A stretch of 64,000 nt of DNA from Deltaproteobacteria bacterium RBG_16_64_85 (GTDB lineage: Bacteria > Desulfobacterota > Deferrimicrobia > Deferrimicrobiales > Deferrimicrobiaceae): NCBI GenBank assembly GCA_001798885.1, contig MGQW01000092.1, positions 1 to 64,000 of the forward strand, in the 5' to 3' direction. A program made the position numbers and the translations under genes. How positions within the stretch are numbered: the stretch's first letter is position 1; every line of letters starts with the position of its first letter. The notes beneath the pieces were generated by a model, which did not search any database, was not told the DNA's origin, and saw only the letters and a list, made by a program, of their open reading frames with translations. This document shows, piece by piece, positions 13,329 through 16,328 of the stretch.

Positions 13329-13801
13329 AGTGCCCCCGGTGTGGCCATGTCGACAACAAGGTGGTCGACTCCCGCGCGGGCAAGGAAGGAGACGTCATAC
13401 GGAGGCGGCGGGAGTGCCTCTCCTGCCGCAAGCGGTTCACCACCTACGAACGGATCGAGGAGGAACTCCCCCTGGTTATCAAGCGCGACGGGCGCCGGGA
13501 GTCCTTCGACCGCCAGAAGATCCTCAGCGGCATCCTCAAGGCGTGCGAGAAGCGGCCGATCAGCTACGCCACCATCGAAAAAGTCGTGGAAACCCTGGAA
13601 GGGGAATTCCAGGCTTCCGGGGAGAAGGAGATCTCCTCGGTGGAGATCGGGGGGCGCGTCATGGCGGAGCTGTTGAAGCTGGATGACGTGGCGTACGTCC
13701 GGTTCGCCTCGGTGTACCGCCAGTTCAAGGATCTGAGCCAGTTCGTGGAGGAGATCAAGACGCTCATCTCCGAACCGACGGACCGCCCGACGAAGCCGTA
13801 A
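13325..13801 (+). CDS. nrdR: Transcriptional repressor NrdR
   Basis: 158 aa, full length. N-terminal zinc ribbon CPRCGH...CLSCRKRF (residues 2-36), then an ATP-cone (about 46-140) opening with [17 protein letters not shown]. NrdR senses ATP/dATP and represses ribonucleotide reductase genes. Starts at TTG overlapping the preceding stop (TTGA). No nrd gene or obvious NrdR-box pair is nearby. Confidence 0.96.
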
Positions 13802-14427
13802 GGGGCCCGCGCGATGCGACACCGTCAATCGTCCGCTCAGATCTCCCTTCGGCTGCGCCGCCTCGGAGGGGGACTCCGTTCGTGGCTCGCCGTGCGGTGG
13901 ATCCGCACGGCTGCGCACCGGCCTCCAGGGCTCCATTCCCTCAGATCCCGGCATTCGAGGGCCGCTGCATCCGCCCCGGCTTCGTTGCCCTCCCTCACCG
14001 TACCGCAGCGGTACGCTTCGGTCGGGCGCCTCGCCGGACGCGGCGCATCGACCCTCTCAGTGCACGGCCTCTGCGGGAACGGAACCCTGAAGGCCGGTCT
14101 CACTGCGCCCCCCTCCTGCGGCGGCTCCGCCGGACCTTCCCGCGGCGTGTGCCTTCCGTCGATGGCGCGTACCGCCCGCACGGAAGGTGCAGCCGAAGGG
14201 GGGCCTCGCGCAGCGAGCAGCCACAATCGCGGAACCGGCGTAGGCCACGCGTTCCTGGCAACGGAGAGCTTGGCGGTCGGTTACGGGAGACCGAAGGCCG
14301 GGGATAGGAAATTGGGGCACGTTTGCTGGACGAAGCCGGGGAGCCATGGCGGATCGCCAGCGAGGTCCCCCCTGAGGCGCAGCACCTTACGTGCCTGGCG
14401 TCTCGTTTCACCGGGGGAGGGCCTGAC
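13802..14427. other. 626-bp gene-free spacer between nrdR and ribD
   Basis: No convincing gene: frames stay open on both strands only because stops are rare in this GC-rich stretch, and their products are Arg/Pro/Gly-rich and low in complexity. It contains the decayed repeat copy at 13951-14063, an 8-bp perfect inverted repeat (14152-14159 with 14180-14187) and a 6-bp one (14355-14360 with 14395-14400). No FMN riboswitch core was found. It interrupts an otherwise tightly packed run, so ribD may have its own promoter here. Confidence 0.6.
13951..14063 (-). repeat. Decayed copy of the 113-bp repeat core
   Basis: In reverse orientation this matches the interior of the element at 15511-15672 (core 15536-15648) over exactly 113 bp with roughly 80% identity. 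Both copies have a palindrome at the centre: stem CGTACCG here, CGTACT there, and the changed stem pair is compensated on both sides. The terminal inverted repeats of the intact copy are not recognisable here beyond short remnants (CCTCA and CTGA/GGC). Confidence 0.75.
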
Positions 14428-15591
14428 GTGACCTTCCCGCGGCCCGAGTTCATGCGGATGGCCCTCCGGCTCGCCCGAAAGGGCGTCGGGCGGACCTCGC
14501 CGAACCCCGCGGTGGGAGCGGTCCTCGTCCGGGGCGGGAAAGTCGTCGGCTGCGGTGTTCACCGGGCCGCTGGACTGCCCCACGCGGAAGTGGAGGCGAT
14601 CCGGGACGCCGGATCCTTGGCTACGGGGGCCGACCTTTACGTGACCCTGGAGCCGTGCTGCCATGTCGGTCGCACGGGTCCGTGCACCGAGGCGATCCTG
14701 TCCGCGGGAATCCGGCGGGTCGCGGCCGCCATGAAGGACCCGAACCCGCTGGTCTCCGGCAAGGGGCTTTCGGCTCTCCGAAGGGCGGGTGTTGCGGTGG
14801 CCGACGGCCTTCTCGAGGAGGAGGCGCGGTCTCTCAACCGCCCCTATTGCCGGTGGGTGGTTTCCGGGAAGCCCTACGTCACCCTGAAACTCGCAATGTC
14901 GCTGGATGGACAGATTGCCTCCTCCACGGGAATGTCCCGATGGATCAGCGGGGAGGAGTCCCGCAAGAGGACCCACCGGATGCGTGCGGAAACCGACGCC
15001 GTGCTGGTCGGGGGGGGGACCTTCCGAAAGGACGATCCGCTGCTCTCTTCCCGCATCCCGGGAGGAAGAGATCCCCGGCGTGTTATCCTCACCTCGCGCC
15101 TGTCGGATATTTCCGGTCGTCGGCTTTTCCGACAGGGGCAGGGAAAGATCCTCTTTGTCTGCCCTCGGGGCGTTTCCGACCGCGACATGAAACGGGTTGT
15201 TTCCCTTGGGGGGAGGGTGCTCCGGCTCCCATCCCGGGGAGGGCGTATTCCCGCGGAGGTTTTCCTTCGGGCATTGGGGAAGGAAGGTGTGACGTCCCTC
15301 CTGGTGGAGGGAGGGGGGAGGACCGCCGGGTGGCTGGTCTCCGCCGGAGCCGTCGACCGGTTCGTATTCTTCCTCGCCCCGCTGCTGCTGGGGGAAGGGA
15401 TGCGGGCGGTGACGGGATTCCGGGCACGATCTGTGGCCGGAGGCAGGAAACTGGCGATCACGGATGTCCGCCGCGCGGGGGACGATCTTGTGGTGACGGC
15501 GGAGCCCCAAGTGCCTCAGTTCACAAATACGGTCAGCACCGAGAGCGTCGATGCGCCGCTCCGGCAAGGCGCGCGACTGAGGCGTACTTAG
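14428..15591 (+). CDS. ribD: Bifunctional riboflavin deaminase/reductase RibD (3' end replaced by inserted repeat)
   Basis: Second and third steps of riboflavin synthesis. The N-terminal deaminase (about 1-145) has the zinc site HAEVEAI and EPCCHVGRTGPC. The C-terminal reductase (about 150-361) includes KLAMSLDGQIA and LLVEGGGRTAGW. The GTG at 14428 is supported by GGGGGAGG 7 nt ahead. The protein is 387 aa, but its last 26 codons and TAG stop come from the inserted element starting at 15511. Without it the frame would run into TAA at residue 362, close to the usual family length. The added tail looks harmless. Confidence 0.93.
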   Translation: MTFPRPEFMRMALRLARKGVGRTSPNPAVGAVLVRGGKVVGCGVHRAAGLPHAEVEAIRDAGSLATGADLYVTLEPCCHVGRTGPCTEAILSAGIRRVAAAMKDPNPLVSGKGLSALRRAGVAVADGLLEEEARSLNRPYCRWVVSGKPYVTLKLAMSLDGQIASSTGMSRWISGEESRKRTHRMRAETDAVLVGGGTFRKDDPLLSSRIPGGRDPRRVILTSRLSDISGRRLFRQGQGKILFVCPRGVSDRDMKRVVSLGGRVLRLPSRGGRIPAEVFLRALGKEGVTSLLVEGGGRTAGWLVSAGAVDRFVFFLAPLLLGEGMRAVTGFRARSVAGGRKLAITDVRRAGDDLVVTAEPQVPQFTNTVSTESVDAPLRQGARLRRT

Positions 15592-15672
15592 ATAGTACGG
15601 CGTAAGGAGCGCAACGCAGCAGGGGCGGATGCAGCGGCGTTCGAATGCGACTGTATTTGTGAATTGAGGTAC
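15511..15672 (+). mobile_element. 162-bp miniature inverted-repeat element (MITE-like) at the ribD stop
   Basis: Terminal inverted repeats: the left end (15511-15537) and the reverse complement of the right end (15672-15647) agree at 21 of the first 24 positions, starting GTGCCTCAGTTCACAAATAC and GTACCTCAATTCACAAATAC. There is a palindrome at the centre (CGTACT-TAGAT-AGTACG) and no coding capacity. A related core lies inverted at 13951-14063. The left flank ends CAA, in ribD frame, and the right flank begins TAA, so removal gives CAA-TAA. No target duplication longer than an ambiguous A/T is visible. The right end lies 20 bp before ribE. Confidence 0.8.
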
Positions 15673-15692
15673 TAAAGGGGACGGGGGGATAA

Positions 15693-16328
15693 ATGTTTAC
15701 GGGCATCGTGGAGGAAGTCGGAACGGTCGTTTCTTTCGCGCCCGAAGGGACCGGCGCCGTCCTGGAAGTGTCCACGGGGCTGCCTTTGGAGGAGATCCGG
15801 GCGGGCGACTCCATTTCGGTTTCCGGCGCCTGCCTTACGGTCACCGGAAAGGGGCCCGGACGGTTCCTGGCGGATGTCTCCCCAGAGACGCTGAACCGTA
15901 CGACGTTCCGTTCGCTGGCGGTAGGGAGGCGGGTGAACCTGGAGCGGGCGATGGTAGTTTCCGGACGGCTGGACGGTCACCTGGTGTACGGCCACGTGGA
16001 CGGCACCGGAACGGTCCGCGAAATGCGGCCCGCGGGGGATTCCCGGGTATTCCATATACGGACCGATTCCTCTATAATGAAATACGTTGTTTTCAAGGGA
16101 GCCGTGGCTGTGGACGGCGTGAGCCTCACGGTCAGCACGGTCCATCCGGACGGGTTCGAGGTGACGTTGATTCCGTTTACCCTGAATCGGACCACCTTTG
16201 GCGGTGCCCGACCTGGGGACAGGGTCAACGTGGAAACGGACATCGTCGGGAAATATGTCCTCCGGTTCCTGGAACGCAAGGATTCGGGGATCTCCAAGGA
16301 TTTTCTCAAAAAACACGGGTTCGCGTGA
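15693..16328 (+). CDS. ribE: Riboflavin synthase, alpha chain
   Basis: 211 aa. It dismutates two 6,7-dimethyl-8-ribityllumazines into riboflavin. The N-terminus [12 protein letters not shown] is diagnostic, and two homologous lumazine-binding repeats follow (about 1-97 and 98-200), each with a [13 protein letters not shown]- or [12 protein letters not shown]-type block. GGGGGGA precedes the ATG. The inserted element now lies in its leader, so transcription must cross it or start beside it. Confidence 0.96.

Follow-up and report, generated by a model that had tools for sequence, protein, structure and literature searches.

IS630 prefers CTAG as its target (Tenzen and Ohtsubo 1991, as cited in PMC2170065), and IS630/Tc1/mariner elements duplicate the dinucleotide TA on insertion (PMC2170065). 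The window that we analysed (the whole stretch of 64,000 nucleotides from Deltaproteobacteria bacterium RBG_16_64_85) carries a miniature inverted-repeat element (MITE) at the 3' end of ribD, and its family has two main end-types. Type 1 MITEs have ends that match those of IS630-family insertion sequences (IS630, ISY100; IS630-Tc1-mariner group), and their target, TA within CTAG, is the one reported for IS630. That group duplicates TA, whereas type 2 elements, the window copy included, duplicate TWA at CTWAG. MITEPsy1 of Pseudomonas syringae is likewise a small MITE, with CTAG or YTAA as its target (PMC3189936); it differs in being 100 nt long and IS5-like, with a 4-nt duplication and ends that begin GGAAGGTCTG (PMC3189936), and by eye it shares no sequence with our element. 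Chunjie of Geobacter uraniireducens, as the work of Chen et al. 2008 is related in PMC10969869, is a deltaproteobacterial hairpin MITE of 178-235 bp that lies between operon genes, and we liken it to ours by that description only. Rickettsia palindromic elements (~150 bp) also add residues to host proteins; by the account in PMC10969869 they insert as a rule in frame inside ORFs, whereas here a single element among 101 extends a gene, through the loss of a duplicated stop codon. In a limited search of openly licensed papers, the family with its exchangeable ends, the 3-bp duplication, the stop-codon preference and the ribD read-through all appear to be new, in line with the initial annotation, which had called the family apparently undescribed.

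The window element is 162 bp long and occupies positions 15511-15672 on the forward strand, exactly the bounds first proposed for it; it is recognised from its sequence, from other copies of the family and from its absence between ribD and ribE in relatives. Its left terminal inverted repeat (15511-15534, forward strand, GTGCCTCAGTTCACAAATACGGTC) agrees at 21 of 24 positions with the reverse complement of the right one (15649-15672, reverse strand, GTACCTCAATTCACAAATACAGTC when reverse-complemented), the same agreement as had been reported. Compared with the type 2 consensus, the left end shows no mismatch over 15511-15533 and the right end shows three. Positions 15536-15648 (forward strand) form a fold-back core of ~113 bp that is common to all end-types, as seen from BLAST matches to core copies in the same genome and in relatives and from paired changes that keep the structure. 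The whole element folds into one long hairpin (predicted RNA minimum free energy -99.1 kcal/mol, z -11.8; DNA z -7.8), and none of 200 shuffled sequences was as stable. It is non-coding, shorter than ~500 bp, multi-copy and bounded by terminal inverted repeats, and target-site duplications and empty sites accompany the family (TA for type 1, TWA for type 2), all of which are general features of bacterial MITEs. It is a mobile MITE, of a kind already known.

We sampled 24 genomes of the host's family and 395 genomes of the phylum, took in ~100 further loci and located the ends of 101 elements. Full elements were present in 20 of the 24 family genomes, and nearly all matches among the 395 phylum genomes fell within the host's family; among the element-bearing records are Deltaproteobacteria bacterium CSP1-8 and several assemblies from groundwater and soil. 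Within the window's own genome, BLAST finds about ten copies of the core, some of them truncated. With up to three mismatches allowed, the end pattern was found in 15 of the 30 genomes that were searched, and a control search with the pattern reversed gave no match; together with the repeated core, this shows that the element is not a chance pattern. The initial annotation had suggested a search of this genome and its relatives with the ends and the whole element, and had held that a lack of further copies would count against its reading; many were recovered. Two end-types account for the 101 elements, type 1 (GTGYMSCGTCTCRYAAATA) and type 2 (GTGCYYCANTTCAYAAATACGGT, the window's own), and core identity is similar under both. 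The window element is not isolated but represents one end-type of a larger family, the other end-type of which is tied to IS630-family insertion sequences.

The two end-types differ in the flanks that they generate. Among type 1 elements (n = 55), TA flanks the left end in 46 and the right end in 42, mostly as CTA...TAG, that is, with TA duplicated inside CTAG. A clean empty site for this type exists in the window's own genome, where the occupied copy reads CAGAAC-TA(element)TA-GGACG and the empty one CAGATC-TAG-GACG, the TAG being a stop codon. Type 2 elements (n = 44) are flanked by TAA or TTA on the left in 31/44 and on the right in 27/44, usually as CTWA...TWAG. Their left and right 3-mers agree at 97 of 132 bases compared to 80.6 in shuffled pairings (p < 0.0005), and the same comparison with 2-bp and 4-bp flanks is marginal (p ~0.04). 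These flanking sequences strongly support a 3-bp duplication (TWA) at CTWAG as a property of type 2 ends. Duplications that have mutated are frequent in the family; two type 2 elements, for instance, have CCAA on the left flank.

At the window locus, ribD (14428-15591, forward strand) reads ...GAG CCC CAA / GTG CCT ... ACT TAG across the left boundary of the element. TIGR00326 matches residues 9-356 of the 387 only and leaves the tail unmatched. The element supplies 26 codons and a TAG (15511-15591, with the TAG at 15589-15591), as the initial annotation had read from the frame; with the CAA codon added, RibD gains 27 residues. The ancestral part of the gene would be 14428-15507, followed by the read-through tail QVPQFTNTVSTESVDAPLRQGARLRRT and TAG (15508-15591, forward strand). 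The next gene, ribE (riboflavin synthase, 15693-16328, forward strand), has an undisturbed start, and the gene order is the same in relatives. Both triplets described earlier are present, the in-frame CAA at 15508-15510, just before the element, and the TAA at 15673-15675, just after it. Because type 2 elements duplicate 3 bp, we read these triplets as two copies of one ancestral TAA. The left target-site duplication (15508-15510, forward strand), now CAA, would once have been TAA, the ribD stop codon, and the right one (15673-15675, forward strand) would be the original copy of that stop. Removal of the element then gives GAG CCC TAA. The initial annotation had restored the empty site as GAG CCC CAA TAA; its placing of the ancestral TAA stop at the insertion point holds, but its CAA is better taken as the mutated left copy of the duplication than as an ancestral codon, so that the restored gene is one codon shorter.

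Comparison with relatives points the same way. The 26-residue tail is absent from every RibD locus examined in the family and from more distant genomes, so the conservation of these residues that would have spoken against an insertion is not seen. Empty ribD-ribE junctions were found as anticipated: the RibD loci of relatives lack the element and end at or near the same place as the inferred ancestral ribD. In a relative of the same genus (RibD protein ~83% identical), the junction is GAG TTC CTT TAA AAGGCGGGTGGAGCC ATG(ribE), compared to GAG CCC CAA(element)TAA AGGGGACGGGGGGATAA ATG in the window. The stop codon of this relative lies at the position aligned with 15508-15510, in agreement with a pre-insertion GAG CCC TAA; the CAA-TAA that the initial annotation expected is not what it shows. 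As this nearest empty site comes from a genome whose RibD is ~83% identical, the exact bases before insertion can only be inferred. Two features of the window copy count against the 3-bp reading: its flanks, CAA and TAA, are an inexact duplication, and the right TAA is followed by A, whereas the usual base is G.

Taking these data together, we consider it very probable that a type 2 MITE inserted at the ribD stop codon with a 3-bp duplication of TAA, and that the left copy later mutated and allowed read-through. A non-autonomous MITE, acted on in trans by a transposase whose gene lies elsewhere, would have entered a CTWAG-like site at the stop codon (C-TAA-A) by DDE-type cut-and-paste insertion, and a 3-bp staggered cut would have duplicated the TAA. 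As the duplication placed the same stop codon at the new junction, ribD would at first have been unchanged. A later T-to-C change would have converted the left TAA to CAA, after which translation would continue for 26 further codons to the TAG within the element.

A different ancestry of the stop codon would follow if the window element were simply an IS630 MITE of the ordinary sort, duplicating the 2 bp TA. In that case the empty site would read GAG CCC C-TA-AAG GGG ACG GGG GGA TAA ATG, and the ancestral ribD stop would be the TAA at 15690-15692 that abuts ribE. TA at CTAG is indeed the target of the family's type 1 members, and ribD stop codons abut the ribE start in several relatives (L063, L064 and L065). 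We nevertheless regard this origin as unlikely, given that the window ends are of type 2, for which the 3-bp duplication is strongly supported, that the left flank of such elements is usually AA where TA would be needed, and that the stop codon of the same-genus relative stands where a 3-bp duplication predicts it. It is also improbable that the CAA at 15508-15510 arose through an error of assembly or sequencing and that ribD still stops at TAA there. The read-through hinges on one base in a metagenome-like assembly of 96 contigs, and apart from the window copy none of the 101 elements has had an in-frame duplicated stop turn into a sense codon; on the other side, there is no positive sign of an error at this base, and mutated duplications are common in the family. 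It seems very improbable that selection maintains the 26 residues as a C-terminal addition to RibD and that the hairpin, far from being a passive insertion, serves the rib operon as a regulatory RNA or a processing element. In favour of such a role, a very stable hairpin lies between two rib operon genes, and the family core is conserved with paired changes. Against it, the tail occurs in no relative, the same sequence lies at unrelated loci, positions 13700-16000 contain no Rfam family above the gathering score, and no promoter- or terminator-like site was seen in the region.

The insertion at the end of ribD fits a preference of the family for inserting into stop codons and regenerating them. 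Using a codon model that had learned from known genes and passed 198 of 198 self-checks, we compared occupied sites with CTAG and CTWAG sites that carry no element, taken from the vicinity of elements in the same genomes. In 38 of 101 elements the target triplet or junction coincides with the neighbouring gene's stop codon, compared to 15 of 106 unoccupied sites (Fisher p = 9e-5); as the unoccupied sites were drawn from around elements, selection and target choice are inseparable in this excess. When sites shared between genomes were merged, the count was 38 of 99 independent sites (p = 6e-5). At two orthologous gene ends, genomes differ in which end-type occupies the stop-codon region: one has type 1, another type 2. 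CTAG itself is ~30-fold rarer in the lineage than its composition predicts (54 occurrences in 525 kb, 1706 expected), and the window contains 6 compared to ~70 in shuffled sequences. A scarcity of CTAG, a share of stop codons among the sites that remain and a target duplication that restores the stop would together provide a concrete and testable reason why compact genomes tolerate some small mobile elements. Moreover, a single base change in a regenerated stop codon offers a route by which a transposon could give a protein a new C-terminal tail.

The fold of the family also appears to be maintained. Among 51 aligned elements, 26 of the 53 predicted pairs are preserved through changes in both partners. 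Such changes occur inside the core as well (columns 73-105, 74-104 and 81-97), and those in the core speak more strongly for a maintained fold, since changes in the ends could also reflect recognition by a transposase. Between nrdR and ribD, at 13851-14134, lies a palindromic repeat of ~284 bp that has the same fold-back core in its middle, under different outer arms; at least five similar copies are present elsewhere in the genome, and no clear duplication was seen.

Several observations tie type 1 ends to the IS630 family. These ends match the ends of IS630-family insertion sequences on plasmids (Methylibium RPME01 and Methylocystis), and both annotated plasmid matches adjoin genes annotated as IS630 family transposase. 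In fragments at contig ends, the C-terminus of an IS630-family transposase runs into a type 1 end, and most related insertion sequences of the phylum carry TAGTG...CACTA as their ends, at CTAG. PF13358 was detected in two family genomes only: the copy in the window's own genome is without similar ends, and an intact IS630 in the relative G014 has ends that resemble type 1. For an autonomous partner within the host's family, no inward-facing pair of type 1 or type 2 ends 0.7-2.5 kb apart read as an insertion sequence. The initial annotation had suggested looking for transposases with the same ends as the window element, and none with type 2 ends was found; plasmids gave chance matches only, and viral contigs gave one chance match, inside a phage gene. 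ISAzo13 (Zator-related) was considered as the driver of type 2 elements and dropped, as PF07592 had no match over the cut-off in the 24 genomes. Type 2 ends share with IS630-type ends only the layout GTG-N7-TCRYAAATA, and the duplication length differs. For this reason, and because no transposase with type 2 ends was found, we do not classify the window element as an IS630-derived MITE with a 2-bp TA duplication; type 2 shows a 3-bp TWA, and it is type 1 that shows TA. The window element probably works by cut-and-paste like IS630. Tentatively, one conserved core may pass between several unrelated or diverged sets of ends (TA at CTAG, TWA at CTWAG and the long palindrome). Type 2 elements would then be moved by an unrecognised transposase, perhaps one related to IS630 that makes a 3-bp cut, and its choice of target would land the element in stop codons and regenerate them. 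With one core shared by different sets of ends, the exchange of ends between MITEs can be tested.

Some individual loci deserve mention. One element (L262, G017:C96) combines a type 2 end with a type 1 end and lacks a matching duplication; it may be a recombinant, and no conclusion here draws on it. In genomes of another genus of the family, two loci (L045 and L048) carry the core under a third set of ends (GGATCCCCTCCCC-like). Elements of ~162-164 bp with type 1 ends and a different interior are found in an assembly labelled Actinomycetes and in Pseudomonas syringae GAW0119 (L125 and L161), and parts of this interior (GGCAAGGCG ... CAACGCAGCC) resemble the core by eye. Finally, one stop-codon insertion is common to the window's genome and the same-genus relative (L235, G000:C39, and L298); in the window's genome only ~40 bp of its two ends are left, which indicates that this insertion is old and decaying.
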